In this document: piece by piece, positions 44,425 to 58,183 of the stretch | Position numbering within the stretch: position 1 is the stretch's first letter | Layout: every line of letters starts with the position of its first letter | Virus record (IMG/VR): IMGVR_UViG_3300017989_000057 | Location: 1 to 64,000 of that record | DNA length: 64,000 bases | DNA from: a virus | Reading direction: 5' to 3' (one strand) | Notes under the pieces: generated by a model | Databases searched by the model: none | The model's input: the letters and a program-made list of their open reading frames with translations, nothing else | Told to the model about the DNA's origin: nothing | Made by a program: the position numbers and the translations under genes

Positions 44425-44776
44425 GGGGGTGAAAGGATTTCGACAGGGTCGAGGAAGGTTGTGTGGCGTGCCGAGGTTGTCAGTGGGCCTCGTAAAACAA
44501 CTGGCAAAAAACCTTAAACGGCGAAGCTCGTTTTCGCATGGCTGCGTAAGTAGCCCGCTGATCGGAAGACTCCCGCTATTCCGTGAAGCGACGACCAGTG
44601 GGATAGTGTCGATCTGATACCTTGCCGGATCGCTACGAAACAACAGCAGGGCGTGGAAAAGCGAAAGCCTGTCGGTTGGCGTTCGTGGCTCCGAGAGTTA
44701 AAAAACTGACTACGCACGTAGAAGCAGAATTGGAATGACTTCTGGACCGGGCTCTCGGATGCCCGCACCTCCACCA
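44425..44776 (+). ncRNA. ssrA: phage tmRNA (ssrA)
   Basis: About 352 nt. The 5' end GGGGGTG pairs with CACCTCC at the 3' end, followed by an A and an encoded CCA, giving a tRNA-like acceptor. The 5' segment GGATTTCGACAGGG is the tmRNA D-loop-like signature, and GGAC precedes the T arm. A pseudoknot is formed by CGAG/CTCG and GTTGT/ACAAC. The tag frame ends GEARFRMAA then TAA (44520-44549); the resume codon is uncertain, between 44502 and 44520. tmRNA frees stalled ribosomes and tags products for proteolysis. Confidence 0.88.
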
Positions 44777-46667: not shown

Positions 46668-46956
46668 TGAAATCAGTCGATCTACTGGCACCAAGAATCC
46701 GAAGGTATTGGTAGCCGAGTTGTGTGGTGTGATCAAGGGGCTTATCGGGGAACTTGAAAAGATTCAGAATCCTCCGGTCACTGTTTTGCCGAAGCGACTG
46801 CCGGAAGACCTTGAACTTCCGTTGAAATCCGAGCCGGTGGAATTGCCGCCGATGATGCCGCCCCCAACGGGTGAGCCGAGGCCGCAGTTTCCGTCACCGA
46901 ATCCGAGTGTGTTGCCGCCGAGACGGCGCGAAGGGAATGCAGGAGACGCAGAGTAA
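46636..46956 (+). CDS. proline-rich small protein
   Basis: 106 aa from the ATG at 46636; a GTG at 46627 is an alternative. A helical N-terminus (LDKIKTRVDEISRSTGTKNP) is followed by a Pro-rich linker. Its stop overlaps the RNA ligase start. It may be an adaptor; unknown. Confidence 0.6.
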   Translation: MNLDKIKTRVDEISRSTGTKNPKVLVAELCGVIKGLIGELEKIQNPPVTVLPKRLPEDLELPLKSEPVELPPMMPPPTGEPRPQFPSPNPSVLPPRRREGNAGDAE

Positions 46957-47918
46957 TGTTCGTAACCGAGCACACATGCGATGTTGTTGAAGTCAAGCTG
47001 ATGCCACACCCCAACGCTGATGCGTTGAGTCTGGTGATGGTTGGAGATTTCCAATGCGCTGTCCGCACCGCAGACTGGAATGACGGCGATCTGGCTGTCT
47101 ACATTCCACCGGACAGTATCGTGCCCGAGACCAAGGAATTTGAGTTTCTGGGCAAGCATCGCAGGATCAAGGCTCGGAAGCTGAGGGGCGAATGGTCTGT
47201 CGGACTACTGGTTCCTGCACCAGAAGGCGCGAAGGTGGGCGACGACTGCATGGAGCAGTTGGGGGTCGTTCATTATGAACCGCAGGTGCATGGCAACTTC
47301 AAGACCGGTGGAGACAATGTGACGCCGCCGCCTGGATTCATGCCAACATACGATGTGCTGAATTTCCGCAAATATTCTCGGTTGTTCCAGGCTGGTGAAG
47401 AGGTGATTGTCACCGAGAAGATACACGGAGCCAACGCACGATTCGCTTGTGTCAACGATGTGATGTACTGCGGGTCGCGCAAGTTTTGGAAGCAGGAAGA
47501 CCCCAACAACCTGTGGTGGAAAGTGCTCCAGCAAAACACAGCCCTTGAAGCATGGCTGAGACATCATCAGGATTACGTGGTCTACGGTGAAGTGTTTGGG
47601 CAGGTTCAGAACTTGAAGTATGGATCGACCAATGGTGCTCTCTTCTTTGCTGCGTTCGACATTCTCCACGGCAATCGGTGGCTGGACTTTGACGAGGCGC
47701 ACGAGATCGGTGCTCCGTTGCCTTGGGTGCCTTTGGTGCATCGCGGCCCATTTGACAAGGATCAGATATTGGCATTCGCGGAAGAGGACAGTTTGTGGCC
47801 AGGTGCGAAACATCATGCTGAGGGGGTAGTGGTTAAGCCGGTTCATGAACGCACCGATCCGCGAATCGGTAGAGTCCAACTGAAAGTGGTAGGTAACCGG
47901 TATTTGAGCAAGAGCTAA
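46956..47918 (+). CDS. RNA ligase with N-terminal OB domain
   Basis: 320 aa. Residues about 1-110 form an OB-like domain. The nucleotidyltransferase domain has motif I with Lys155 (EKIHGAN), YCGSRKFW, VYGEVFG, FFAAFDI, EGVVVKP and QLKVV. This is the build of Deinococcus-type RNA ligases (Rnl5-like), which seal nicks in RNA. In this window, with many tRNAs, it may repair anticodon-nuclease damage. Confidence 0.9.
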   Translation: MFVTEHTCDVVEVKLMPHPNADALSLVMVGDFQCAVRTADWNDGDLAVYIPPDSIVPETKEFEFLGKHRRIKARKLRGEWSVGLLVPAPEGAKVGDDCMEQLGVVHYEPQVHGNFKTGGDNVTPPPGFMPTYDVLNFRKYSRLFQAGEEVIVTEKIHGANARFACVNDVMYCGSRKFWKQEDPNNLWWKVLQQNTALEAWLRHHQDYVVYGEVFGQVQNLKYGSTNGALFFAAFDILHGNRWLDFDEAHEIGAPLPWVPLVHRGPFDKDQILAFAEEDSLWPGAKHHAEGVVVKPVHERTDPRIGRVQLKVVGNRYLSKS

Positions 47919-48385
47919 TGTTACGGTTTGTTGACGGCAATATGTTTGATCTGGACGCCGACGTACTGGTAAATACGGTGAATTGTGTTGGTGTCATGGG
48001 GTGCGGCGTTGCGCTAGCCACCAAACAACGGTATCCAGAGATATACAGGCGGTATCGTGCCGACTGCAAGAATGCCACGATAATGCCGGGTGGCGTTTAT
48101 GTTTATCGAGCCAATGACGATAAGCTCATTCTCCAGTTTGCCACCAAGGATCATTGGAGACAACCATCGCGGCTCGTTTATATCCAAAATGGTCTTGATG
48201 CCCTGAAGAATATATTGCAACAGCAACCACATGGAACTGTCGTAGCGATACCGGCTCTCGGATGTGGGCATGGTGGCTTGGACTGGGATACCGTCAAGGC
48301 AATGATCGAAAGTCGTCTGAGTGATTTGGATCACCTGGACATCCATGTTTTTCAGCCACAGGATTCCAGGGCATTGGGGAGGTAG
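47918..48385 (+). CDS. DarG-like macro domain protein
   Basis: 155 aa. The macro fold has DVLVNTVNCVGVMGCGVALA, ATKDHWRQPSRLVYI and PALGCGHGGLDW. This pattern is that of DarG/TARG1-type macro domains, which remove ADP-ribose, including from DNA modified by DarT. A phage copy could undo a DarTG defence or reverse other ADP-ribosylation. It overlaps the RNA ligase stop. Confidence 0.88.
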   Translation: MLRFVDGNMFDLDADVLVNTVNCVGVMGCGVALATKQRYPEIYRRYRADCKNATIMPGGVYVYRANDDKLILQFATKDHWRQPSRLVYIQNGLDALKNILQQQPHGTVVAIPALGCGHGGLDWDTVKAMIESRLSDLDHLDIHVFQPQDSRALGR

Positions 48386-48387
48386 AG

Positions 48388-48678
48388 ATGCCATACATCC
48401 CGAAAAAGGAACGTGAGAAATACGACTATCTGATCGATGCTCTGGCCCACATACTCAACACACGGGCCGACAGCGATGAACTATCGGGAGAAATGAACTA
48501 CGTCCTGTTTCGTCTGGCAAGGCTGTTGTGCGACGGCGAATCTGGCGGTAAGCGCGGATACGCAAGAATGGCTGTGGTGTCATCTGCGCTCGCAGAAGCT
48601 CAGGCGGAATTCCGTCGTCGGGTGATGGCACCCTACGAAGACGAGAAAATCAGTTTGGCAGGAGATGTCGAACTGTGA
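48388..48678 (+). CDS. DUF6899-like small protein
   Basis: 96 aa with GAGGTAGAG before the ATG. KKEREKYDYLID, GEMNYVLFRL and RRRVMAPYEDEKI resemble, from memory, the DUF6899 phage family. Its stop abuts tRNA-Phe. Function unknown. Confidence 0.7.
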   Translation: MPYIPKKEREKYDYLIDALAHILNTRADSDELSGEMNYVLFRLARLLCDGESGGKRGYARMAVVSSALAEAQAEFRRRVMAPYEDEKISLAGDVEL

Positions 48679-48754
48679 GGGTTGGTAGCTCAGCTATGGT
48701 AAGAGCGTCGGTCTGAAAAGCCGAGCGTCGGTGGTTCGACTCCACCCCGACCCA
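48679..48754 (+). tRNA. tRNA-Phe (GAA)
   Basis: Acceptor GGGTTGG pairs with CCGACCC. Anticodon loop CTGAAAA. T arm with TTCGACT. No encoded CCA. It begins at the base after the previous stop codon. Confidence 0.93.
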
Positions 48755-48757
48755 TGA

Positions 48758-48831
48758 GGCGGTATAGCTCAATTGGATAGAGCACCGGCCTGTCGAGCCG
48801 GGTGGTGCGAGTTCGAGTCTCGCTACCGTCG
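48758..48831 (+). tRNA. tRNA-Asp (GTC)
   Basis: Acceptor GGCGGTA/TACCGTC, anticodon loop CTGTCGA, T loop TTCGAGT. Three bases separate it from tRNA-Phe. No encoded CCA. Confidence 0.92.
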
Positions 48832-48842
48832 TTGAATTTTGA

Positions 48843-48914
48843 TGCGGGGTGGAGCAGTGGTAGCTTAGCGGTTTCATAAGCCGAAGGTCGCCGGTTCAAA
48901 TCCGGCCCCCGCAA
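48843..48914 (+). tRNA. tRNA-Met (CAT), initiator-like
   Basis: Acceptor TGCGGGG/CCCCGCA, then GGAGCAG and TGGTAGCT as in bacterial initiator tRNA, anticodon loop TTCATAA, and TTCAAAT T loop. Unlike E. coli fMet, positions 1-72 form a U-A pair, and the anticodon stem lacks three consecutive G-C pairs. Initiator use is likely but not certain. Confidence 0.85.
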
Positions 48915-48925
48915 GTCTAACTCTT

Positions 48926-49223
48926 GGCGACACAAGAGAGAGCATGAGAGAATCGCTTGCGATTCTCAAGAAATTGTGCCGAAACCGATGTCGCGGTAGT
49001 TAGCGGTGAACGCCGGAATAGTGACCGCCGAACGGAGTGCGAGGCCCGTATTGGTGACGGTTGTGCCGAATTGTTGGGGCGGCACACGACAGGTAGTCGG
49101 CTGTACGGCGGGGTGTTCCCGTGAAACCGCCAGCCCCGAATGTTAGGACCAGGGGCCAAAGTCAGTGTCGGCAAGGTTGGACAATGTGACAGGGGACTGC
49201 TGGTCGAATCCAGCCCGTCGCCA
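48926..49223 (+). ncRNA. candidate structured RNA with tRNA-like ends
   Basis: GGCGAC (48926) pairs with GTCGCC (49217-49222), followed by A. Just inside the 3' end, GGAC is followed by a T-arm-like hairpin (GCTGG, TCGAAT, CCAGC). Inside are a perfect 8-bp hairpin (48948-48967), GCGGT/ACCGC (49003-49028) and GGGGCGGC/GCC-A-GCCCC (49076-49137). No gene fits. It is not a canonical tmRNA: the GGATTTCGAC segment is missing. RNase P signatures are also absent. It fills the gap between tRNA-Met and the gene at 49254. Confidence 0.6.
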
Positions 49224-49253
49224 TTAGTTCCGTAAGGTTAAGGGAGAAGAAAG

Positions 49254-49553
49254 ATGTTGCGAGTAAGACAAGGTTCTGATGAAGTTGAAATTCGGTTCGA
49301 CCACAAGTTTTGTCGGCCAGACGAGATAGAGGGGCTGACCGGTATCTGTGTTGACGAAGACCGTAGATGTACGTTGGCTACGCTGCAACTGAACGGATCG
49401 GTCATTAGTCGTGGGATGGCTGTGTGTCATCCGGCTGACAACTTCTGTCGGGCTACTGGCAGGAAAAAGGCTTTGGTCTATGCAATCCACCCTCTTGATA
49501 AGCAATTCCGCGCCGCTATTTGGCGTGAATACGAAGCCCAGTGTGGTTTCTGA
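49254..49553 (+). CDS. hypothetical protein
   Basis: 99 aa with GGGAGAAG before the ATG. Acidic start, then RGMAVCHPADNFCRATGRKK, which looks conserved. No family identified. Confidence 0.65.
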   Translation: MLRVRQGSDEVEIRFDHKFCRPDEIEGLTGICVDEDRRCTLATLQLNGSVISRGMAVCHPADNFCRATGRKKALVYAIHPLDKQFRAAIWREYEAQCGF

Positions 49554-49562
49554 AAGTGGGCC

Positions 49563-49751
49563 ATGGATACTGAATATATCATTGTATCGGACGATGACGG
49601 ACACAACTATGTGATTCCTGCCGACAAGTCGAAAGAGTGGAATCGTTGGCTTGACTCCCAAGATTGCCAAGGTGGTATAGTCCCGACATGGTGTGAATCC
49701 ATCGGTGGTTCGATCAGCTTGGTGAAATTCAAGAGCTACCGTATTGACTAG
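49563..49751 (+). CDS. small acidic protein
   Basis: 62 aa, alpha/beta, with YIIVSDDDGHNYVIPADKSK. Weak ribosome binding site. No family. Confidence 0.55.
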   Translation: MDTEYIIVSDDDGHNYVIPADKSKEWNRWLDSQDCQGGIVPTWCESIGGSISLVKFKSYRID

Positions 49752-49760
49752 GAGATTGCT

Positions 49761-50021
49761 TTGAATCCAGAAGAAGCAAAGAAAATCAAGTGTGACCGTT
49801 GTGGAGCAGTTATCGGTCTCCATCGTCACTCGGATGGCTGGCGATGTCCGCAATGCATCTGGAACGAGCGCGAGAACTTGATTGAGTGGGCTAGGTGCTT
49901 GCTGAGTGCGACCGATTACACGACCGCAGCCAACACCGATAGGCAAGCCGTCGTGGTTTCTCGTCGAACGATGGACGCCCTGGCGGAAGTTGTCCGCGAG
50001 GTTACCGCCACAGGTGTATAA
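49761..50021 (+). CDS. zinc-ribbon protein
   Basis: 86 aa with a TTG start after GGAG. CDRCGAVIG and CPQC form one zinc ribbon, then a helical part. Its stop codon lies inside a class B motif (50013-50022). Function unknown. Confidence 0.65.
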   Translation: MNPEEAKKIKCDRCGAVIGLHRHSDGWRCPQCIWNERENLIEWARCLLSATDYTTAANTDRQAVVVSRRTMDALAEVVREVTATGV

Positions 50022-50022
50022 G
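50013..50022 (+). promoter_or_regulatory. class B promoter-like motif before tRNA-Thr
   Basis: GGTGTATAAG overlaps the stop of the zinc-ribbon gene, with the -10 about 13 bases before tRNA-Thr. Confidence 0.45.
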
Positions 50023-50034
50023 CTATGGGGATGC

Positions 50035-50107
50035 GCCCCTGTAACTCAATAGGAAGAGTACCTGTTTTGTACACAGGATGTTGGCGGTTCGATTCCGTCC
50101 AGGGGCT
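50035..50107 (+). tRNA. tRNA-Thr (TGT)
   Basis: Acceptor GCCCCTG/CAGGGGC, anticodon loop TTTGTAC, T loop TTCGATT. Position 73 is T. No encoded CCA. Confidence 0.88.
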
Positions 50108-50109
50108 AT

Positions 50110-50506
50110 ATGAAGAGATGTAGGAAAAAAACCGTGTATCAGGTGTGGGGTCATAACTGCCAATTTCAAATATTGCTCAACAGAATGTCAGCACCTACAT
50201 GTTTGGGAGCAACTAAAAAAAGCAGCACTCGAAGCTTGGAAGTTCCTGACATGGAAAAATGCCAAGCGTTATCTCTTGGAGACATATGGGCAGAAATGTG
50301 CTATATGCGGTCTCACGGAATGGAATGATCAACCAATGCCGGTTACGATCGATCACATCAATGGCGATTATTCGGATCATGGCATTTCTAATGTTCGATT
50401 GATCTGTCCAAATTGTGATGCTCAAACCGACACATATAAGGGGCGCAACAGGGGGAACGGTAGACACAGCCGCCGAGAGCGGTACCAAAAGGGCTTGAGC
50501 TACTGA
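50110..50506 (+). pseudogene. HNH endonuclease split by a one-base shift at A7
   Basis: ATG 50110 reads MKRCRKK up to a run of seven A. Skipping one A continues as CIRCGVITANFKYCSTEC, WKFLTWKNAKRYLLETYGQK, and the HNH core CAICGLTEW, VTIDHINGDYSDHG and CPNCD to 50506. The full protein would be about 130 aa. Mutation, base error or slippage at A7 could explain it. Confidence 0.8.
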
Positions 50507-50507
50507 G

Positions 50508-50517
50508 GGTGTATAAT
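50508..50517 (+). promoter_or_regulatory. class B motif abutting a start codon
   Basis: GGTGTATAAT ends two bases before the ATG at 50520, too close for a normal leader. GAGG in the same stretch could be the ribosome binding site. Confidence 0.45.
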
Positions 50518-50519
50518 CT

Positions 50520-50798
50520 ATGGGTCAGAGCGGAAAGAAGCGCAAGCAGCAACGGCGAGCCCAGGAGCGTGAACGCGCCAAGCCTGAGCCCCCAAATCAA
50601 GAGGTACTTGATTCTATAGGCAGTCCAAACGCCTGGACTCCAGAAGCCGAAGATGCTTGGCTCAAAGAGCTTCGTAAGATACCGGCAGGGGAAATCTATC
50701 GGAGATTCCCGCCGATGCGGAAACCCCCGAATGTTCGGAAAAGGGGTAGTGGGTCAGGTTGGGGTGACAATGCCTGGGCGGTGGAAAGATATCTGTAA
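50520..50798 (+). CDS. basic, disordered-type protein
   Basis: 92 aa. The N-terminus is extremely basic (GKKRKQQRRAQERERAKP), followed by helical and Pro-rich parts. RNA or DNA binding is plausible. The start lies next to a class B motif; a later start is not available. Confidence 0.6.
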   Translation: MGQSGKKRKQQRRAQERERAKPEPPNQEVLDSIGSPNAWTPEAEDAWLKELRKIPAGEIYRRFPPMRKPPNVRKRGSGSGWGDNAWAVERYL

Positions 50799-50824
50799 TA
50801 CGGGGAAAAGATGGGGGGAGTCAA

Positions 50825-51031
50825 GTGCGTAAGATTTCTTGTGCAATTTTTTTTACAGCGTGCTTGCTGATGACCAGTGGGTGTCGGCTCCTGGAATCCG
50901 CAGTGAGTGATGTCGGAGGTTGGGATGTAAGTGCTTGCGTTGACGGCTTCGGGACGTGTTGGGAACTCTTTTTCGATAATGCCGACAAGTTCGAAGATGG
51001 CTTTGTTGAGGCCATGGGGGATCTACCGTGA
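50825..51031 (+). CDS. small lipoprotein
   Basis: 68 aa with a GTG start and GGGGGAG upstream. Signal peptide with lipobox MTSGC, lipid Cys20. The mature part is acidic. Cell-surface function unknown. Confidence 0.68.
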   Translation: MRKISCAIFFTACLLMTSGCRLLESAVSDVGGWDVSACVDGFGTCWELFFDNADKFEDGFVEAMGDLP

Positions 51032-51198
51032 AACAAAACAAAGTAACAGTTGATGGTGGCCAGATTTGTCACGATCGCATGGGTGTAGTTAAGAGGGGGG
51101 TTGAGATATTAGTATCGCAGATGCCAGAAGACTTCGACTGGACCAAGCACAATCTGGTCATGACCATTACCCCAAAGACCCAGGAAGGGGTCAAATAA
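51028..51198 (+). CDS. 56-residue hypothetical protein
   Basis: GTG start overlapping the lipoprotein stop (GTGA). Short alpha/beta sequence (RMGVVKRGVEILVSQMPEDF). No family. The following 170 bases hold a perfect 7-bp hairpin (TGGGGTC/GACCCCA near 51239) and a 12-codon frame before the next gene. Confidence 0.5.
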   Translation: MKQNKVTVDGGQICHDRMGVVKRGVEILVSQMPEDFDWTKHNLVMTITPKTQEGVK

Positions 51199-51373
51199 TT
51201 CGTCTCGTGGCCGCTGTGCCCTTTTCCTGTCTGGCCTGGGGTCTGAGACCCCAAAACAGCACACGGCTCCCCAGACGGCTTAGGCGTGGTTCTCGGGGGC
51301 ACCAGAAGGGGAATACACCATATAAGTATTACTTGAATATGGAGGAAATCCTCCGTCGTAGAAAGGGGAAGCT

Positions 51374-51586
51374 GTGACTGACTGGAACGAAGAAGTACAA
51401 CGGGCTGCTGAACGAGCTATGGAAGTGGCTACTGCGGTAATCCGCAAAGACGGCCCCAAGAGCAAGCCCTACTGCGTGTACAGTGAGAAGACAGGGCGGA
51501 AGTTCGGGTGTTACCCGAGTCGTAAGCAGGCCGAGGAACGGCTAAAGCAAATTGAGAAATTTCGCTACATAAAGGGTAATAAATAA
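51374..51586 (+). CDS. small basic phage protein
   Basis: 70 aa with a GTG start and AGGGGAAG upstream. The C-terminal YCVYSEKTGRKFGCYPSRKQ is a short conserved motif found in many phages, often next to proteases or portals. Function unknown. Confidence 0.68.
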   Translation: MTDWNEEVQRAAERAMEVATAVIRKDGPKSKPYCVYSEKTGRKFGCYPSRKQAEERLKQIEKFRYIKGNK

Positions 51587-51587
51587 C

Positions 51588-51650
51588 ATGATTGAAATTG
51601 ATGCCATGACTGGCCCAGTAATTTTGAATTTATATGCCCAGCCCGTCTGA
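51588..51650 (+). CDS. possible 20-residue peptide
   Basis: ATG right after the preceding stop, 21 codons. Weak support; may be spurious. Followed by a terminator. Confidence 0.3.
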   Translation: MIEIDAMTGPVILNLYAQPV

Positions 51651-51696
51651 CGTATCAGCGGTACCCAGCTTGCCCACCATGTGTGGGTGGAGTAAC

Positions 51697-51728
51697 GGTG
51701 TCGTCTTCCGGGGGCGGCACCAGTTTTT
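51697..51728 (+). terminator. intrinsic terminator
   Basis: GGTGTCG pairs with CGGCACC, followed by a run of seven T. It lies just before the class A promoter at 51740. Confidence 0.7.
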
Positions 51729-51739
51729 TTCATTTTTTG

Positions 51740-51769
51740 TGAAACAAACACCGGAGTTTGGGGTATAAT
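51740..51769 (+). promoter_or_regulatory. class A promoter of leader and DUF4326 unit
   Basis: TGAAAC (51740-51745), 18 bp, TATAAT (51764-51769). Confidence 0.78.
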
Positions 51770-51791
51770 GATACTGTAGGAGGAACAACCA

Positions 51792-51875
51792 ATGAGATCG
51801 ATACGCAGACATTATAAACCCGCCATTTTAGCCGCCGCGCTCAATCCACGCGCACGGGGTGGTGATGCGGGCTAA
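51792..51875 (+). CDS. 27-residue leader peptide
   Basis: AGGAGGAAC before the ATG. Basic Arg/Ala-rich peptide ending RARGGDAG. It lies between a class A promoter and a terminator directly upstream of the DUF4326 gene, like an attenuator leader. Codon-specific stalling is not obvious. Confidence 0.5.
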   Translation: MRSIRRHYKPAILAAALNPRARGGDAG

Positions 51876-51908
51876 GGTCTGTCTGTTCCTTTTTGACTGG
51901 AGACTTTG

Positions 51909-51934
51909 GCCCGCGAGAAATCGCGGGCTTTTTT
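51909..51934 (+). terminator. intrinsic terminator or attenuator
   Basis: GCCCGCGA, loop GAAA, TCGCGGGC, then six T. It sits 16 bases before the DUF4326 start, so readthrough control is likely. GTCCGATAT in reverse (51941-51949) overlaps the gap. Confidence 0.9.
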
Positions 51935-51949
51935 ATTGGAATATCGGAC

Positions 51950-52549
51950 ATGAAGACCACAGTGGTAAATATTCGCCAAAACGAATACGACGTGTATATC
52001 GGCAGGGAGGGACACGGCCATGATGGCTATTTTGGGAATCCCTTTTCCGCTATGCGAGATGGTGGCCGTGAGAGGGCAATCGCGCTGTACAGGGAGTATT
52101 TCTACCGGCGATTGCGGGTTGACTCAGAATTTGCTGAACGAGTACAGGAATTAAAGGGTAAACGATTAGGATGTTTTTGCGCACCGAAACCATGCCATGG
52201 TGATATTATAGCCGATTATGTAAATATTGAACCCAATGTTAAACCATATGTTGATGAGTTAATGGCTGGAGGTTTCTACACTTTTTCGTCTTGCGACGGT
52301 GGTAATGGTCACTCATTCAAAAAAAGAACAATTAAAATCAACGTAGATCAGCCAACTGTCGATGATCCATGTGGATATGATATTACTATCCGTGGAGAAC
52401 GCAGATGTTACGAAAGATTCATCGATTTGTGCGATTTTATTGAAGGTAAGAAATGGACATATTGCAAAGTATTATTAGTAAGAGAATATATAATAAATGA
52501 CCAGAATGTGCCCAAAGCAAATGTCCATTTTGAATTGGTGTGGAATTAA
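51950..52549 (+). CDS. DUF4326 protein with C-terminal extension
   Basis: 199 aa. The first 100 residues match DUF4326 (YIGREGHGHDGYFGNPFS, GKRLGCFCAPKPCHGDIIA), a SLOG-like family that may bind nucleotide ligands. The C-terminal 95 residues form a second domain (FSSCDGGNGHSFKKR...YDITIRGE). AT-rich in its second half. Preceded by leader peptide and terminator. Confidence 0.8.
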   Translation: MKTTVVNIRQNEYDVYIGREGHGHDGYFGNPFSAMRDGGRERAIALYREYFYRRLRVDSEFAERVQELKGKRLGCFCAPKPCHGDIIADYVNIEPNVKPYVDELMAGGFYTFSSCDGGNGHSFKKRTIKINVDQPTVDDPCGYDITIRGERRCYERFIDLCDFIEGKKWTYCKVLLVREYIINDQNVPKANVHFELVWN

Positions 52550-52550
52550 A

Positions 52551-52655
52551 ATGAAGGTTATTGTTTGTGGTAGTCAAGATTGGAAGGGATACCAGACGAT
52601 TAGAAAGCGGTTGGAATTGCTTCCGCCCAATGCCATAGCGATGAAAGTGGGTTGA
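52551..52655 (+). pseudogene. truncated SLOG/DUF2493-like gene
   Basis: 34 codons: KVIVCGSQDWKGYQTIRKRL resembles the start of DUF2493 SLOG proteins, then a stop where the conserved Gly-rich ligand loop would follow. Probably a 5' fragment. It overlaps no other gene. Confidence 0.65.
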
Positions 52656-52688
52656 TCGAGCGGTTCGAGGTTGGGGGATATAGATAAC

Positions 52689-52922
52689 ATGGATACGACA
52701 GAAAAGAGAACGCTGTATCGAAATGCGTATGGACAGGTTCAGTGTGACAGGTGTGGTTGCTATAGTGATCTAATCTATCCGGTACACTTGCGGAATCAGA
52801 ATGGATCGTGGGTAAGTATGTTGTGTCATCGCTGTCAGGGTGGACCGCCCGGAAGTCGTGTTGAGAGAATCGACGATCCGATCGATCTCAAGACTTATGA
52901 TGGACCTGTCAAAGAAGGGTAG
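52689..52922 (+). CDS. zinc-finger protein
   Basis: 77 aa with GGGGG upstream of the ATG. CDRCGCYS and CHRCQGG give one zinc site. The end abuts tRNA-Pro. Function unknown. Confidence 0.65.
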   Translation: MDTTEKRTLYRNAYGQVQCDRCGCYSDLIYPVHLRNQNGSWVSMLCHRCQGGPPGSRVERIDDPIDLKTYDGPVKEG

Positions 52923-52995
52923 CGGAGTGTAGCTCAGTTGGTGGAGCGCGCGGTTTGGGACCGTGAGGTCGGTGGTTCGAGTCCACTCACTCCGA
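52923..52995 (+). tRNA. tRNA-Pro (TGG)
   Basis: Acceptor CGGAGTG/CACTCCG (C1 is typical of Pro), anticodon loop TTTGGGA, T loop TTCGAGT. Confidence 0.92.
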
Positions 52996-52998
52996 GTC

Positions 52999-53071
52999 TT
53001 GCGGGTAGCTCAATGGCTAGAGCGTTCGCCTGTTAAGCGAAAGTGTGCGGGTTCGAATCCCGTCCCGTAAG
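52999..53071 (+). tRNA. tRNA-Asn (GTT)
   Basis: Acceptor TTGCGGG/CCCGTAA, anticodon stem TTCGC/GCGAA with loop CTGTTAA, T loop TTCGAAT. G73 as usual for Asn. Confidence 0.92.
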
Positions 53072-53084
53072 TTAGGAGATTGGT

Positions 53085-53261
53085 ATGAAGTGTGGCGAAA
53101 AAATATGGGTTATTTACGATACCAGGACTGGCAATATTGCTGAAAGTGGAGATAATTCTTTGCCTTTGATTTTCGAAGATGAAGACGCCGCAAGAGATTG
53201 TGCTGATTTGGTTCGTCACTGGGATGTATATCCAGCCTTTCTTACACGAGAGGAAAAATAA
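53085..53261 (+). CDS. 58-residue hypothetical protein
   Basis: TAGGAG before the ATG. Alpha/beta, Asp/Glu-rich (LIFEDEDAARDCADLV). Its stop overlaps the next ATG (TAATG). Confidence 0.6.
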   Translation: MKCGEKIWVIYDTRTGNIAESGDNSLPLIFEDEDAARDCADLVRHWDVYPAFLTREEK

Positions 53262-53665
53262 TGCAGACATTTTTGCCCTATGCCGATTTCGACAAGAGTG
53301 TCCATTGTTTGGACAGGCAGCGGTTGGGGAAGCAGCGGGTGGAGGCGATGCAGATTCTCAATACCCTTGCCCGTGGTAGTCGATGGGCAAATCACCCTGC
53401 TGTCCTGATGTGGCGGGGATACGAGAATGCATTGCGACTGTACATGAACAAGTGTATCCAGGAATGGATTCGACGTGGATACAACAATACGATGCAGATT
53501 GCAGAAGTGACAGAACCAGTTGAGATGCCACCGTGGTTCGGGGATGAAGAATTCCATGCATCTCATAGATCGAATCTGCTTCGCAAGGATGCAGAGTGGT
53601 ACGGACAATTTTGGTGGGGCGAGACAGACAAGTTGCCGTATGTTTGGCCCGTGAGGAAAAGCTGA
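53261..53665 (+). CDS. pyrimidine-dimer DNA glycosylase-like protein
   Basis: 134 aa. LPYADFDKSVHCLDRQRLGK, VEAMQILNTL and WANHPAVLMWRGYENAL match the MSMEG_6728/Pyr_excise family, related to T4 endonuclease V. It may start base-excision repair of UV damage. Conserved Thr2-type catalysis cannot be confirmed. Confidence 0.8.
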   Translation: MQTFLPYADFDKSVHCLDRQRLGKQRVEAMQILNTLARGSRWANHPAVLMWRGYENALRLYMNKCIQEWIRRGYNNTMQIAEVTEPVEMPPWFGDEEFHASHRSNLLRKDAEWYGQFWWGETDKLPYVWPVRKS

Positions 53666-53946
53666 TGGATTTGAGTGGTATTGAGGAATTGTTGGAGTTT
53701 GCTAGGGTGGACAAAGAAACAGCGCAGCAAATTTGGAAAGACGTAAAGGCGAACCACAAGAGGTTGGACAATTGCAAGGGGCCACATGATTTTCGACCAG
53801 TTCCGGCTGAAGGGAAAAGTCTTGTCCGCGATTACGTGTGTTCCCGGTGCAATGGCAAGGTCGATGCCATCCACAAGTTGTGGTACGAGAGGGGGTTGGA
53901 GCATGGACGCAGCGAAGCTCAAGGCGATTCTGGAAAGACTACGTAA
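53665..53946 (+). CDS. small zinc-binding protein
   Basis: 93 aa; the ATG overlaps the preceding stop. CKGPHDF and CSRCNGK could bind one zinc. Helical C-terminus. Unknown. Confidence 0.6.
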   Translation: MDLSGIEELLEFARVDKETAQQIWKDVKANHKRLDNCKGPHDFRPVPAEGKSLVRDYVCSRCNGKVDAIHKLWYERGLEHGRSEAQGDSGKTT

Positions 53947-53983
53947 GGTCTATGGCGAGATGCTCAAGCGGCTGGCGAAGTAA
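53903..53983 (+). CDS. 26-residue amphipathic peptide
   Basis: GGGGGTTGGAG before the ATG. One basic helix (KLKAILERLRKVYGEMLKRL). It overlaps the previous gene and ends at the hairpin array. Weak support from the ribosome site and coupling. Confidence 0.4.
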   Translation: MDAAKLKAILERLRKVYGEMLKRLAK

Positions 53984-54107
53984 CAACCTCCAGGGGTTGT
54001 ATTTCGGGAAAACAACCTTTAAGGGTTGTCTTTGGGAAAACAACCAAAAAAGGTTGTCTGGCAGCCAAAAATGGTTGCCTCAGCGGAGGCAGCCGAAAAT
54101 GGTTGCC
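53984..54107 (+). repeat. tandem array of five small hairpins
   Basis: Five CAACC/GGTTG or GCAGCC/GGTTGC hairpins start at 53984, 54013, 54041, 54061 and 54088. Loops are A-rich and spacers often contain GGGAAAA. Units are about 20-29 bp. They lie between the peptide gene and 54118, with no T-run. They may be protein-binding stems, RNA decoys or translation control. Confidence 0.8.
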
Positions 54108-54117
54108 TGGAGAAAAA

Positions 54118-54600
54118 ATGAGCATAACAGTACAAGATATCAGGAAGGCGATTACCGAGATCAAGCGGGTCCACAATTTACCTACTTCGCAAGTGGTAGA
54201 AGCATTTTTGATCAACCGCGACGATCTGGACGAGCTATGTAGCTGGGCTGTCGATCAAGGACAGCCGATACACGATCGAGAAACTGGAACGGTTTTTGTC
54301 TATGGTGTCAAGATCATCGAAAGCCCTTATGTCCCGAAGGGAACCATCTACAAATTGCTCAAGGATAATTTACAGGAATATGCGATGGGTGGTTTTGGGG
54401 CTGGTGTTAGTGGAATGATACCAGCGTCATCCGATTTCGCTACCACGATACCAGCGAGTGGTTCGTTCAAGATGCCCGACTGCTTTCCTGTCGTGCCAGA
54501 GAGTGGGACGATCTACGTACCAAAGCCTACGCCGACACCGGCTGTACCAAAGAAGCCAGAGAAGAAACACAGTTCAAAGAGACGGATCGAGTTGGACTGA
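54118..54600 (+). CDS. hypothetical protein
   Basis: 160 aa with GGAG before the ATG, just after the hairpin array. Helical N-terminus, then a Pro/Ser-rich tail (VPKPTPTPAVPKKPEKKHS). No family. It ends right before tRNA-Ala. Confidence 0.62.
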   Translation: MSITVQDIRKAITEIKRVHNLPTSQVVEAFLINRDDLDELCSWAVDQGQPIHDRETGTVFVYGVKIIESPYVPKGTIYKLLKDNLQEYAMGGFGAGVSGMIPASSDFATTIPASGSFKMPDCFPVVPESGTIYVPKPTPTPAVPKKPEKKHSSKRRIELD

Positions 54601-54606
54601 CAATAC

Positions 54607-54678
54607 GGGGGGATAGTGATAACGGGAGCACACCTGCCTTGCAAGCAGGAAGTCGGGGTTCGATTCCCCGTCCTTCCA
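54607..54678 (+). tRNA. tRNA-Ala (TGC)
   Basis: Acceptor GGGGGGA/TCCTTCC with two G-T pairs, anticodon stem CCTGC/GCAGG with loop CTTGCAA, T loop TTCGATT. The D stem is short (about 3 bp). Confidence 0.85.
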
Positions 54679-54691
54679 TTGGAGAACAGAG

Positions 54692-55044
54692 ATGAAAGTG
54701 GATAAGCCTAAACTCAGAAGTGGGCCAACAGGACCACATTCACATGGATACAAAATGTGTATGGTTAGGTATTCGGACGGAACCGACAAAGCTATTACAT
54801 GGCACAAGTATATCTACGAATCTGAATAGAGAATCTGGAAGCTAAGGTAGTTTCTGATCATACCAGAGGACATCAGACACCGGCGTCGGCAAAGACCTAT
54901 GTGTGCCCATGGTGTGGTATTAGTTTCGAACGCTCGGATCGTAGAGTACGACACAATCAAACGAGTCAGCGGAAGGCTGGCCCCTTTTGTAGTCGATCGT
55001 GTGGTGCAAGCTGGGGAAGAGAAAAACAGCTTGGAAGATTGTAG
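54692..55044 (+). pseudogene. HNH gene with internal deletion
   Basis: 54692-54829 gives a 45-aa HNH-type N-terminus (GYKMCMVRYSDGTDKAITWH) with a good ribosome site. From 54826, another frame gives the C-terminus (ENLEAKVVSDHTRGHQ, YVCPWCGISFERSDRRVRHN, FCSRSCGASWGREKQ) but no start. The catalytic HNH middle is missing. A clear decayed homing endonuclease. Confidence 0.75.
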
Positions 55045-55126
55045 CCCCTGTGATGGAATTGGCAGACATGACTGGTTTAAGCCCAGTTGCCTTCATGGCG
55101 TGTAGGTTCGAACCCTACCGGGGGTA
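55044..55126 (+). tRNA. tRNA-Leu (TAA)
   Basis: Acceptor GCCCCTG/CGGGGGT, anticodon loop TTTAAGC, long variable arm, T loop TTCGAAC. 83 nt. Its first base overlaps the stop of the HNH remnant. Confidence 0.9.
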
Positions 55127-55132
55127 GTAGCA

Positions 55133-55205
55133 GCCCGAGTAGCCCAACGGCAGAGGCACACGGCCTAGAACCGTGTCAGTGGTGGTTCGAATCCACTCTC
55201 GGGTA
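55133..55205 (+). tRNA. tRNA with TAG anticodon, odd identity
   Basis: Acceptor GCCCGAG/CTCGGGT, anticodon stem CACGG/CCGTG with loop CCTAGAA. Position 33 is C, not the near-universal T. Read normally the anticodon is TAG (Leu), but the class II variable arm of Leu is missing. Gln- or suppressor-like use is possible. 73 nt, no CCA. Confidence 0.7.
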
Positions 55206-55211
55206 TTTGAT

Positions 55212-55284
55212 AGGTAGGTAGCTCAACTGGTAGAGCAGTGGTCTCCAAAACCAAAGGTTGAGGGTTCGAATCCCTCCCTGCCCA
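55212..55284 (+). tRNA. tRNA-Trp (CCA)
   Basis: Acceptor AGGTAGG/CCTGCCC with a 1-72 A-C mismatch, anticodon loop CTCCAAA, T loop TTCGAAT. Confidence 0.88.
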
Positions 55285-55286
55285 TA

Positions 55287-55359
55287 GGGCGGTTAGCTCA
55301 GTTGGGAGAGCACCTGCCTTACAAGCAGGGGGTCGCAGGTTCAAGCCCTGCACTGCCCA
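55287..55359 (+). tRNA. tRNA-Val (TAC)
   Basis: Acceptor GGGCGGT/ACTGCCC, anticodon stem CCTGC/GCAGG with loop CTTACAA, T loop TTCAAGC. Confidence 0.92.
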
Positions 55360-55364
55360 TTTGA

Positions 55365-55436
55365 GCCGGTGTAGTTCAACTGGTAGAACGCTCGGCTGTG
55401 GACCGGGAAATACAGGTTCGAGCCCTGTCGCTGGTG
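55365..55436 (+). tRNA. tRNA-His (GTG)
   Basis: Acceptor GCCGGTG/CGCTGGT, anticodon loop CTGTGGA, T loop TTCGAGC. No encoded G-1 to C73 pair is visible; position 73 is G. Confidence 0.85.
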
Positions 55437-55482
55437 TAACAGGTTTGGTATACAAAAACCGCCTCGCGGATATTGGCTCAAA

Positions 55483-55557
55483 GCGCCCGTAGTCTAATTG
55501 GATAAGGCCCTCGCCTTCTAAGCGAGTTTGTTGGGGGTTCGAGTCCCTCCGGGCGTG
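55483..55557 (+). tRNA. tRNA-Arg (TCT)
   Basis: Acceptor GCGCCCG/CGGGCGT, anticodon stem CTCGC/GCGAG with loop CTTCTAA, T loop TTCGAGT. Confidence 0.92.
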
Positions 55558-55559
55558 TA

Positions 55560-55632
55560 GGGGATGTAGCTTAATTGGCAGAGCACTGGTCTCTTAAACC
55601 AGAGGATGTGGGATCGTTGCCCACTGTCCCCA
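55560..55632 (+). tRNA. tRNA-Lys (CTT)
   Basis: Acceptor GGGGATG/TGTCCCC, anticodon stem CTGGT/ACCAG with loop CTCTTAA. The T loop ATCGTTG departs from TTCRANY, so folding or activity may be altered. Confidence 0.8.
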
Positions 55633-55644
55633 TTGGAGGCTAGA

Positions 55645-56022
55645 ATGGTAAAGCACGGATCACCGCCGTATCTGGAATGCAGCACACACGGAGACCGAAG
55701 GTTCTCTGCGTTCTGTGCTCGCCTGGAAGGCCGGGGTGGAAAGAGTATCGAAGAAATCTACCAAGCAGCCAAGGTGTTCGAAGGCGGGGTGACTGGCCTG
55801 ACATGGCAAGATGCGAAGGGTCGGGTGCCTATCAATGGAGAAGAGGTAGCTCGATTGTACTCCCAGCTTTGGGATGAATACATTGACGAGAATCCACACT
55901 TGTTGGATGTCTTGAAGATGGTGAGTGGCGTCAGCGACAAGTTCGGTCAACGGGGTCACATGTGCCAAGCGACAGAATTATGGAGGATTAGATGTGAGAG
56001 GGCTGGTAACTCAATGGATTAG
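55645..56022 (+). CDS. hypothetical protein ending inside a tRNA
   Basis: 125 aa with GGAGG before the ATG. LECSTHGDRRFSAFCARL, IEEIYQAAKVFEGGVTGLTW and FGQRGHMCQATELWRIR look conserved and enzyme-like. The last seven codons lie in tRNA-Lys (56000-56073), so the original C-terminus may have been replaced. Function unknown. Confidence 0.7.
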   Translation: MVKHGSPPYLECSTHGDRRFSAFCARLEGRGGKSIEEIYQAAKVFEGGVTGLTWQDAKGRVPINGEEVARLYSQLWDEYIDENPHLLDVLKMVSGVSDKFGQRGHMCQATELWRIRCERAGNSMD

Positions 56023-56073
56023 AGTAGCGGGCTTTTAACCCGCAGGCTGTGGGTTCGAGTCCCACCCAGCCCA
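56000..56073 (+). tRNA. tRNA-Lys (TTT)
   Basis: Acceptor GGGCTGG/CCAGCCC, anticodon stem GCGGG/CCCGC with loop CTTTTAA, T loop TTCGAGT. It overlaps the end of the preceding gene by 23 bases. Confidence 0.92.
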
Positions 56074-56091
56074 GTAGTGAAGGGGGTTGTC

Positions 56092-57099
56092 ATGAAGCTT
56101 GAAGACATTGGATTCTACACGCTATCTGACAAGCGTGCGTTGAACGCTAGCGACACCTCTCCGTTGCAGCGGTGTGAGTTGATTCTTACGGATCGCTGTA
56201 ACCTACGGTGTCCGTATTGCCGTGGTGTAAGACCGGAGATTCGTGGAGATATGCCGTTCAAACAGGCGATTAAAACTGTCAATCTCTGGATCGCTCAAGG
56301 GCTGAAGAACGTCAGGTTCTCTGGTGGGGAGCCTACTCTATACAAGTGTCTGGGTAAGTTGGTTGATCGTTGTCGTGAAGGTGGGGTCGAGCGTATCGCA
56401 ATCTCCACAAATGGTACGGCAAAGCTTGAGACCTATCTGGCTTTGGTCGGAGCGGGTGTCAACGATTTCTCCATCAGTCTTGATGGTGGTTGCTGCGCTG
56501 TTGGTACGGACATGGCCGGTGGAGTGAAGGGTGCATGGGCGAAGGCTGTAGAGTCTATCCGCACTCTGAGCAAGATCACCTACGTAACCGTTGGCATGGT
56601 CTTCACCGAGGCTAATGTTGACCAGTGTGTTGAGGCTGTGCTGTTCGTGGACAGCCTGGGGGTTTCTGACATCCGAGTTATCCCAGCGGCACAGTACAAC
56701 CAAGCTTTGACAAAGCTGGCCGATTTGCCAGACGAGGTATTGGACAAGTACCCGATCCTGAAGTACCGGATTGGGAACCTGAAAGCTGATAGAAGTGTAC
56801 GCGGAATCTGTGAGGGCAATTGTCGCAAGTGCTGGTTGGCACTGGACGACATGGCTGTAGCCGGTAAATGGCACTTCCCATGCATCATCCACTTACGGGA
56901 AGGTGGCGATCCTATCGGTGAAGTAGGTCCGAACATGAGGGCCGAGCGACTACAATGGATTCTTGAACACGATAGCATGGCCGACCCAATCTGTGCTGCG
57001 AACTGCCTGGACGTGTGCGTTGACTACAACGACACGGCAGCTATATCGCACCCAGAAAAGAGGGCCGGTAGCTCAGTGGTACGAGCGGGATGCTTATAA
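56092..57099 (+). CDS. radical SAM protein
   Basis: 335 aa. The CxxxCxxC cluster (Cys36, Cys40, Cys43 in TDRCNLRCPYCRG) binds the [4Fe-4S] that cleaves SAM. RFSGGEPTL is the SAM GGE motif. C-terminal cysteines (CEGNCRKC, CAANCLDVC) suggest an extra cluster (SPASM-like). It could modify RNA, a peptide or a nucleotide. The last 12 codons lie inside tRNA-Ile, so the tail may be altered. Confidence 0.88.
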   Translation: MKLEDIGFYTLSDKRALNASDTSPLQRCELILTDRCNLRCPYCRGVRPEIRGDMPFKQAIKTVNLWIAQGLKNVRFSGGEPTLYKCLGKLVDRCREGGVERIAISTNGTAKLETYLALVGAGVNDFSISLDGGCCAVGTDMAGGVKGAWAKAVESIRTLSKITYVTVGMVFTEANVDQCVEAVLFVDSLGVSDIRVIPAAQYNQALTKLADLPDEVLDKYPILKYRIGNLKADRSVRGICEGNCRKCWLALDDMAVAGKWHFPCIIHLREGGDPIGEVGPNMRAERLQWILEHDSMADPICAANCLDVCVDYNDTAAISHPEKRAGSSVVRAGCL

Positions 57100-57134
57100 C
57101 ATCCAAGTCGCTGGTTCGATTCCAGCCCGGCCTA
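57062..57134 (+). tRNA. tRNA-Ile (TAT)
   Basis: Acceptor GGGCCGG/CCGGCCT, anticodon stem GGATG/CATCC with loop CTTATAA, T loop TTCGATT. Encodes TAT to read ATA codons rather than CAT with lysidine. It overlaps the radical SAM gene by 38 bases. Confidence 0.88.
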
Positions 57135-57137
57135 TGT

Positions 57138-57216
57138 TGGCTGATAGCTCAGTTGGTAGAGCAGTGGTAGGGTCGCTCCCTGCTACGGCGCGCAGGTTCG
57201 AGTCCTGCTCAGCCAG
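57138..57216 (+). tRNA. tRNA-like, 8-bp anticodon stem, loop with CGC
   Basis: Acceptor TGGCTGA/TCAGCCA, D arm GCTC/GAGC, T arm GCAGG/CCTGC with TTCGAGT, all normal. The anticodon arm is GTGGTAGG/CCTGCTAC (8 bp instead of 5) with loop GTCGCTC. If read normally the anticodon is CGC (Ala). The extra 3 bp are very unusual. A six-base insertion into a normal arm is an alternative view. Confidence 0.7.
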
Positions 57217-57221
57217 TAGAT

Positions 57222-57294
57222 GTCTCCGTAGTGTTCAACAGTAGCACGCCAGTCTTCCAAACTGGAGGTCTCGGTGCAAATCCGAGTGGGGACT
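57222..57294 (+). tRNA. tRNA-Gly (TCC)
   Basis: Acceptor GTCTCCG/TGGGGAC, anticodon stem CCAGT/ACTGG with loop CTTCCAA, T loop TGCAAAT (T-loop second base is G). Confidence 0.85.
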
Positions 57295-57298
57295 TTGG

Positions 57299-57372
57299 GG
57301 GCTTGTAGCTCAGTGGAATTAGAGCACCGTCTACGGAACCGGGTGTCGGGAGTTCGAATCTCTCCAGGCCCA
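57299..57372 (+). tRNA. tRNA-Arg-like (ACG), degenerate anticodon stem
   Basis: Acceptor GGGCTTG/CAGGCCC and T arm GGGAG/CTCTC are good. The loop CTACGGA would give anticodon ACG, but the anticodon stem has two mismatches in five positions. It may be decaying or read otherwise. Confidence 0.6.
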
Positions 57373-57380
57373 TTGAAGCA

Positions 57381-57453
57381 GGGCTTGTAGTTTAGTGGTT
57401 AAAACACACGCCTGATAAGCGTGAGATCGCTGGTTCGATTCCAGCCAAGCCCA
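57381..57453 (+). tRNA. tRNA-Ile (GAT)
   Basis: Acceptor GGGCTTG/CAAGCCC, anticodon stem CACGC/GCGTG with loop CTGATAA, T loop TTCGATT. Confidence 0.93.
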
Positions 57454-57477
57454 TAAAGGGGTAACATCGGGTCGATC

Positions 57478-57519
57478 TTACCCCATTAACGGGATTTTAC
57501 CCCATTCCATTACCCCATT
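57478..57519. repeat. three TTACCCCATT repeats
   Basis: Exact TTACCCCATT at 57478, 57497 and 57510. GGGGTAA upstream (57459-57465) can pair with them, giving alternative hairpins before the zinc gene at 57554. Possible regulator site or transcript-end element. Confidence 0.65.
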
Positions 57520-57540
57520 GTGGATAGAAACACCGTCATT

Positions 57541-57550
57541 GGTGTATAAA
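57541..57550 (+). promoter_or_regulatory. class B motif just before ATG
   Basis: GGTGTATAAA ends three bases before ATG 57554, followed by a second ATG at 57557, the expected transcript start. A leaderless mRNA would fit; no Shine-Dalgarno site is seen. Confidence 0.5.
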
Positions 57551-57553
57551 CTG

Positions 57554-57748
57554 ATGATGGAAGAAAGAGAAACAGGCATCCCATGCTTTGGGTGCGGTCA
57601 ACGATCGGGTATCGATTGCCCAGGCCGCAGGCCGGATGAGGCCACCCGTTGTAAGGTGTGCTTGGAAGAATTCATGCGGCAGATGGACACAGCAGAGCGG
57701 GTCATGGAGGAACACAAGGACATGTTGAGAAGGTTGGCAGATTCGTAG
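57554..57748 (+). CDS. small zinc-finger protein
   Basis: 64 aa from the first ATG, or 63 from the ATG at 57557. CFGCGQRSGIDCPG and CKVC form a zinc site. C-terminal helix (RQMDTAERVMEEHKDMLRRL). Probably DNA- or protein-binding. No Shine-Dalgarno; class B motif directly upstream. Confidence 0.65.
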   Translation: MMEERETGIPCFGCGQRSGIDCPGRRPDEATRCKVCLEEFMRQMDTAERVMEEHKDMLRRLADS

Positions 57749-57757
57749 GAGCGAGAA

Positions 57758-57829
57758 ATGAAGCTACAACAGCAATCATCCCAGTCGAGTAGTCAACGGC
57801 CTCGTGGCCGTCTGGGGTGGACTGTGTAG
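57758..57829 (+). CDS. 23-residue Gln/Ser/Arg peptide
   Basis: TAGGAGCG before the ATG. Gln/Ser-rich then Arg-rich (QRPRGRLGWTV). It is followed by a terminator, like the small frames at 43706 and 51792. Its translation is plausible but unproven. Confidence 0.5.
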   Translation: MKLQQQSSQSSSQRPRGRLGWTV

Positions 57830-57851
57830 ATTCAGGTACACGGAAACACAG

Positions 57852-57888
57852 AACCGGGCGGTCCATGAGGGCTGTCCGGTTTTTTTTG
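57852..57888 (+). terminator. intrinsic terminator
   Basis: AACCGG and CCGGTT close an imperfect hairpin followed by a T-run to 57888. It ends the short unit before tRNA-Ser. Confidence 0.75.
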
Positions 57889-57896
57889 TGCGCAGA

Positions 57897-57979
57897 GGAA
57901 AGCGCCGCGGAATGGTCTGCAACTCGGTTTGAACCCGAGGGGGGCTGAAAGGCTCGGGGTTCGATTCCTCCGCTTTCCG
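57897..57979 (+). tRNA. tRNA-Ser (TGA)
   Basis: Acceptor GGAAAGC/GCTTTCC, anticodon loop TTTGAAC, long variable arm, T loop TTCGATT. G73. Class II as expected. Confidence 0.9.
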
Positions 57980-57990
57980 TTATCTTGTGG

Positions 57991-58018
57991 TTCTATGGGG
58001 TATATATACACCATAGAA
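57991..58018. repeat. 28-bp near-perfect palindrome
   Basis: TTCTATGG (57991-57998) pairs with CCATAGAA (58011-58018), and the inner GTATATATAC is itself palindromic. It lies between two serine tRNAs. Possible processing or recombination site. Confidence 0.7.
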
Positions 58019-58020
58019 TG

Positions 58021-58105
58021 GGGTGGTGAAGTCGCAAGGCGCGGCCACCGGCTGCTAACCGGTTGGGGCTCGCACGAGTCTGTGGGTCGGGACCACCGCC
58101 ATCCG
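58021..58105 (+). tRNA. tRNA-Ser (GCT)
   Basis: Acceptor GGGTGGT/GCCATCC, anticodon stem ACCGG/CCGGT with loop CTGCTAA, long variable arm. Position 8 is G and the T loop is GTCGGGA, both unusual. Confidence 0.82.
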
Positions 58106-58109
58106 TTGA

Positions 58110-58183
58110 GGGCCGATAGCTCAAGCTGGCAGAGCGTCTGGCTTTGAACCAGGAGGTTGCAAGTTCGAACCTTGCTCGGCCTG
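58110..58183 (+). tRNA. tRNA-Gln (TTG)
   Basis: Acceptor GGGCCGA/TCGGCCT, anticodon loop CTTTGAA, T loop TTCGAAC. Confidence 0.9.

Follow-up and report, generated by a model that had tools for sequence, protein, structure and literature searches.

A conserved tRNA-like, pseudoknotted RNA in the tRNA cluster of a large uncultured phage

Structured RNAs near phage tRNA genes

GOLLD and ROOL are structured RNAs located in or near phage tRNA genes, and the YrlA-type bacterial Y RNA is a non-coding RNA that carries a tRNA-like module. Small RNAs are also encoded in the tRNA cluster of phage T4, where rnaD (119 nt) and rnaC (139 nt; RNA C or species 1 RNA; AF158101 70908-71046, equivalent to L129 409-547) adjoin. 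T4 rnaC has a canonical T-arm, GGGTTCGAATCCC, and a paired terminus, with CCGGGTTCGAATCCCGG near the 3' end, and Rfam holds no family for rnaC or rnaD. Both RNAs have been seen in infection, with functions unknown (PMC3014915, PMC9697503); accumulation as a discrete RNA in infection has been shown for T4 species 1 RNA only (PMC9697503). Here, a tRNA-like pseudoknotted RNA of 171 nt, RNA-B, is described from the tRNA cluster of an uncultured phage; it is very probably a structured tRNA-like RNA gene.

The tRNA cluster and its neighbouring genes

The window, that is, the whole stretch of DNA analysed (64,000 nt, positions 1 to 64,000 of IMG/VR record IMGVR_UViG_3300017989_000057), belongs to a virus record of 160,681 bp in which terminase and portal genes are present; its phage is labelled G000 among its relatives. 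The 21 tRNA genes of the cluster span positions 48,679-58,183 of the window. Just 5' of them (46956-48678) lie genes for an RNA ligase (PF09414), a macro domain (PF01661) and DUF6899, a neighbourhood that is suggestive of RNA repair. A tmRNA gene missed by ARAGORN is found at 44425-44776 (RF00023, 132.9 bits), 4.3 kb upstream of RNA-B, and its tag, as read from the sequence, apparently ends in NGEARFRMAA. On the plus strand, like RNA-A, RNA-B and all their parts below, are the upstream neighbour of the interval of interest, tRNA-Met (CAT) at 48843-48914 (found by ARAGORN and by the Rfam tRNA model, 62.5 bits), and the downstream neighbour, a conserved 99-aa ORF (49254-49553) that starts 30 nt after RNA-B and has no Pfam or PHROG match. 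The family of this ORF stays near RNA-B in most of the phage group and occurs in other phages too. In one relative (G006, L071 about 1780-1990), an apparently structured, unannotated stretch lies between tRNA-Lys and a gene of the same family.

Two structured elements in one interval

Positions 48926-49223 had been read from their letters alone as one structured RNA of about 298 nt with paired ends (the original prediction). The observation is real and its borders are wrong, so that it is partly confirmed, and the interpretation given to it is partly supported. Directly after tRNA-Met, within the tRNA cluster, the sequence is indeed non-coding and structured, with a 3' end that resembles a tRNA (GGAC, a T-arm and a discriminator A). 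The interval as a whole is more stable than its shuffled versions (z = -3.18, 0/100), and its two parts, folded separately, reach z values of about -1.5 only; folding energy alone is therefore weak and not decisive, and the strong evidence comes from covariation. The proposed pairing of the ends, GGCGAC (48926) with GTCGCC (49217-49222), is possible in G000 and is not kept in relatives: GGCGAC faces GTAGCC in G024 and CTCGCC in G025, and in other relatives RNA-B occurs without any such sequence upstream. The conserved acceptor pairing joins 49053-49060 to 49215-49222 (GGTGACGG/CCGTCGCC) and covaries among homologues (GGCTGCGG/CCGTAGCC, GGCGAGT/GCTCGCC and GACGATGG/CCATCGTC), the true 5' strand of RNA-B being GGTGACGG at 49053. 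Since this pairing is rebuilt by compensation and the GGCGAC pairing is lost, the interval consists of most of one element, RNA-A (48916-49049), followed by RNA-B (49053-49223). A single RNA of about 300 nt would agree with the adjacency of both elements in G000 and G024 and with the 6-bp match that joins the ends in G000; it is nevertheless extremely improbable, because that match is broken in G024 and G025, RNA-A is absent beside RNA-B in six of the nine distinct RNA-B sequences, and a tRNA-Glu gene sits between the two elements in G025.

RNA-A is thus a second structured element, independent of RNA-B. The copies in G000, G024 and G025 hardly differ and have sharp borders, with a few compensatory changes; the apical hairpin is variable and is longer by about 95 nt in G025. 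The three copies are compatible with a long stem built from CTAACT/AGTTAG and GCGACA/TGTCGC; in the hairpins CGGT/ACCG and ACGG/CCGT, a few compensatory changes are seen among them. A local hairpin, CTCTTG/CAAGAG, shows one compensatory change and excludes part of the long stem; as both competing structures are allowed, the fold of RNA-A stays a candidate only.

Anatomy of RNA-B

RNA-B consists, in order, of P1, P2, P3, S1, P5, a variable hairpin and the T-arm, followed by the 3' strand of the acceptor stem and its discriminator. The 5' strand of the acceptor stem P1 (49053-49060) shows compensatory changes at four of its eight pairs in the nine sequences; P1 is 7-8 positions long across homologues, with one mismatch each in G026 and G006, and the discriminator at 49223 is A, as in 7/9 homologues, the others having G. 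P2 (GTGCC/GGCAC, 49063-49085) is compensatory in 5/5 pairs, and its loop holds TTGTTGGGG (TTGTTAGGG in relatives; consensus UUGUURGGG). Next comes P3 (49087-49099), a D-arm-like hairpin, CGAC-AGGTA-GTCG, with 3/4 pairs compensatory and loop variants AGGTA, AGATA, AGGA and TGGA, so that GG is present in eight of nine sequences (G024 has AGATA). Stem S1 (GGCGG/CCGCC, 49107-49131) pairs 49107-49111 with 49127-49131; all its cells are paired, relatives have GGTGG/CCACC, and the consensus is GGYGG/CCRCC. The loop of S1 provides one strand of the pseudoknot helix S2 (49115-49197), in which GTTCCC (49115-49120) pairs with GGGGAC (49192-49197), just before the T-arm. Elsewhere S2 reads GTTCCC/GGGAAC, GTTCCG/CGGAAC, ACTCTC/GAGAGT, GTCCT/AGGAC or GTCT/AGAC; all six pairs are compensatory and 48/48 cells pair, against at most 62.5% in slid versions. 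The original prediction had described a GGAC plus a T-arm-like hairpin; the T-arm stands, and the GGAC turns out to be the 3' strand of S2.

Hairpin P5 (GCCCC/GGGGC, 49133-49156) is compensatory in 5/5 pairs and keeps GGACC within its loop in 9/9 sequences; the variable hairpin P6 (GTCA/TGAC, 49161-49190), with two compensatory pairs, is missing from some relatives. The T-arm (GCTGG-TCGAAT-CCAGC, 49199-49214) has 4/5 pairs compensatory. Its loop is of the canonical 7-nt type in six of nine sequences (TTCGAAT, TTCGACT or TTCAATT, all outside the subgroup of G000) and one base short (TCGAAT) in the other three, G000 included. Acceptor stem and T-stem together amount to 12 positions in six of the sequences and to 13 in the other three, a length comparable to that in tRNA. 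Two further contacts were considered and dropped: an initial pseudoknot between ACAC before the D-arm and GTGT in the S1 loop, because P2 covaries better and S2 accounts for the loop, and an interaction of the P2 loop with that of P5, because G012, G025 and G013 do not preserve it.

Homologues and covariation

Nine distinct RNA-B homologues, 135-171 nt long, are present in ten related large uncultured phage records. The terminase led to 41 related IMG/VR loci, 30 of whose records were searched with the element, which was found in G024, G025, G017, G018, G012 and G013; the last four contained only the 3' part of the interval, about 150 nt. In an alignment of six RNA-B sequences, 98.1% of cells pair and 22/36 pairs change on both sides. 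A covariance model built from these six (R1; 126 bits for RNA-B of G000) then detected, out of sample, three unseen homologues, in G026 (60.4 bits), G006 (49.1) and G021 (29.3). With all nine sequences, in an alignment fitted to the structure by hand, with gaps filled with N and a few loop or linker bases left out, 98.8% of cells pair, 29/38 pairs are compensatory, and the covariation score is 0.674, compared with 0.257 for shuffled and at most 0.103 for slid versions. The fold of RNA-B is therefore conserved and under selection. A second model, R2 (89 bits for RNA-B of G000), recovers all ten records. Thus the undescribed structured RNA with tRNA-like ends that had been suspected near phage tRNAs exists as RNA-B, with its covarying fold and homologues in nine further records.

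Among the group records of at least 100 kb, RNA-B occurs in 7/10, and G002, G008 and G015 have no convincing match. Weak R2 matches of 18-19 bits in G007/G020 and G044 have a tRNA-related look and were left out of the members. At G007:32700-33700 (L125), about 458-563, and similarly in G020, there is a tRNA-like gene with an apparent hairpin insert of ~37 nt in the anticodon loop and without an ARAGORN call. BLAST of the element against the 50,697 phage records of INPHARED detected none; a pattern scan of IMG/VR for the T-arm/GGAC end returned nothing; one for the D-arm/S1 core returned known members plus GC-rich regions without tRNA genes, chance matches by inspection; one for GGACC plus T-arm returned three known members and three unrelated matches; and one for the P2/D-arm/S1 string returned three known members only. 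The latter string, which represents one RNA-B subgroup only, matched three times in 84,980 bacterial and archaeal genomes, and the model rejected all three. A separate observation concerns an unrelated phage (L109 11584-11719; IMGVR_UViG_3300023257_000042), which encodes a 136-nt tRNA-Leu-like RNA without an ARAGORN call, with ~60 nt in the variable region that include a GTTCC/GGAAC stem and GGACC.

Gene neighbourhood in relatives

RNA-B is placed among tRNA genes in much of the group: it begins a few bases after tRNA-Met in G012, G017, G018 and G026 and after tRNA-Glu in G025, is preceded by RNA-A in G000 and G024, and comes behind protein genes, or the ends of such genes, in G013, G006 and G021. 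On its other side, a start codon is found 17-39 nt downstream in 9/9 sequences, and the 99-aa ORF family provides the next gene in G000, G012, G013, G017, G018, G025 and G026. This arrangement would also fit a cis-acting, tRNA-shaped, riboswitch-like leader of the gene at 49254-49553. However, a constant downstream gene is lacking, as G024, G006 and G021 have a different one; G002 has the 99-aa ORF after tRNA-Met without RNA-B; tRNA genes in this cluster also precede start codons at similar distances; and the S2 and T-arm parts are clear of the ribosome-binding site. The differing next gene favours an RNA gene over a leader, which we regard as unlikely, although some regulation is conceivable.

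Relation to tmRNA, tRNA and other known families

No Rfam family matches RNA-A or RNA-B at gathering or E-value thresholds, and for the interval 48926-49223 no match reaches the gathering score and none up to E=10 is credible. This bears out the view that the RNA is neither canonical tmRNA nor RNase P. The suggestion that it may be a divergent tmRNA-like RNA did not hold. Like tmRNA (RF00023), RNA-B has a tRNA-like acceptor and T-arm forming the upper half, GGAC before the T-arm and an internal pseudoknot, and tmRNAs occur in this phage group, so that a decayed or divergent tmRNA that kept its tRNA-like domain and lost its message can be imagined. In contrast to tmRNA, of about 350 nt, RNA-B is 135-171 nt long and has no message: the nine sequences contain no conserved tag reading frame with a hydrophobic -AA end, no RF00023 match is found on RNA-B, G3-U70 is absent (P1 position 3 is C-G or U-G in 9/9), and the S1/S2 topology differs. 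Moreover, an intact RF00023 tmRNA exists separately from RNA-B in G000, G017, G018 and G026 (tag ends, as read from the sequences, NGEARFRMAA, NGESKFKLAA and LAMAA). Descent from tmRNA is consequently very unlikely.

Membership of the tRNA family (RF00005) was also rejected, as RNA-B has no anticodon arm and no Rfam tRNA match; ARAGORN made one spurious partial call only among the homologues, in G026. What RNA-B retains is the upper half of a tRNA: an acceptor stem and T-arm that together make about 12 bp, the TTCRANT loop (6/9) and a D-like arm with GG (8/9). A group I intron within a tRNA was discarded on the grounds that there is no Rfam match and that no cloverleaf is left after removal of an imagined insert. 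GOLLD, ROOL, RNase P and YrlA gave no Rfam model match, and a link to Y RNA and Ro60 was abandoned, with no Rfam Y-RNA match and no Ro60/TROVE protein in the G000 record. The original prediction had also considered an RNA of the ornate type, from which RNA-B departs, since the GOLLD and ROOL RNAs (PMC12286853) are much larger.

Proposed processing and role

The explanation that we favour, with a probability of roughly 0.55, is that RNA-B is a transcript of the tRNA cluster, excised by tRNA-type processing, that adopts an elbow fold and mimics tRNA in trans. RNA-B would be transcribed together with the cluster, in the way for which T4 RNA C, made in infection and with a tRNA-like 3' end, offers a precedent. 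RNase P would then cut before G49053, and the tRNA 3' nuclease and CCA addition would act after A49223. RNase P measures an acceptor/T-arm helix of such length, and RNA-B would accordingly be expected to be cut out of the tRNA transcript; CCA is not encoded after RNA-B and thus would be added. Processing of this type is likely. The RNA is predicted to fold into a tRNA-like elbow made of acceptor stem, T-arm and D-like hairpin, with the S1/S2 pseudoknot and the GGACC hairpin in place of the anticodon arm. The short TCGAAT loops of three sequences and the AGATA loop of G024 might make the canonical elbow contact weaker.

That RNA-B works in trans by mimicking tRNA is possible, at somewhat less than even odds. 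The elbow might engage a partner that binds tRNA, for example the ribosome, a nuclease or an enzyme of processing or repair, and specificity could come from contacts made by the invariant GGACC loop and the UUGUURGGG (TTGTTRGGG) loop. With RNA-ligase and macro-domain genes in the neighbourhood, a part in tRNA damage or repair is an attractive, if speculative, possibility. One special case of the favoured explanation is a tRNA decoy directed against a host tRNA-cleaving defence, for which those same genes just upstream and the mimicry of the acceptor/T/D half would speak. Nevertheless, anticodon nucleases usually attack the anticodon loop, which RNA-B lacks, and a decoy is rather improbable.

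More speculatively, RNA-B may represent a new RNA family based on tRNA mimicry, in which a pseudoknot replaces the anticodon arm and a phage-made adaptor steers ribosomes, tRNA repair or an enzyme of defence; T4 RNA C would then have solved the same task independently. We hold this only tentatively. If the adaptor reading were true, such RNAs would have evolved repeatedly in phage tRNA clusters. That a second, unrelated group of phages has a pseudoknotted RNA of tRNA-like design, accompanied in three of them by another structured element, points to a recurrent theme. RNA-B offers a defined fold for testing, with conserved loops and with pairs that can be mutated, and it shows that RNA genes overlooked by both tRNA finders and Rfam exist in the tRNA clusters of large phages.

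Comparison with T4 RNA C

RNA-B and T4 RNA C are both small RNAs encoded in a phage tRNA cluster; each has a tRNA-like 3' end, paired ends and a second small RNA beside it. They differ in other respects: R2 with filters off matches only the T-arm of rnaC, no shared sequence or secondary structure was detected beyond it and hence no detectable homology, and the two occur in different phages. The rnaC consensus, drawn from three phages, shows one long, branched hairpin and one further hairpin, and lacks P2, the D-arm-like hairpin and the S1/S2 pseudoknot. Two rnaC hairpins contain the complementary sequences TTGACG and CGTCAA in all four Tevenvirinae sequences compared (L129-L132), and from these letters a loop-loop contact within rnaC is possible. 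Because RNA-B and rnaC share design and place, not sequence or fold, RNA-B is taken as a new RNA family of the tRNA-like type found in phage tRNA clusters, and T4 RNA C is the closest known thing to it.
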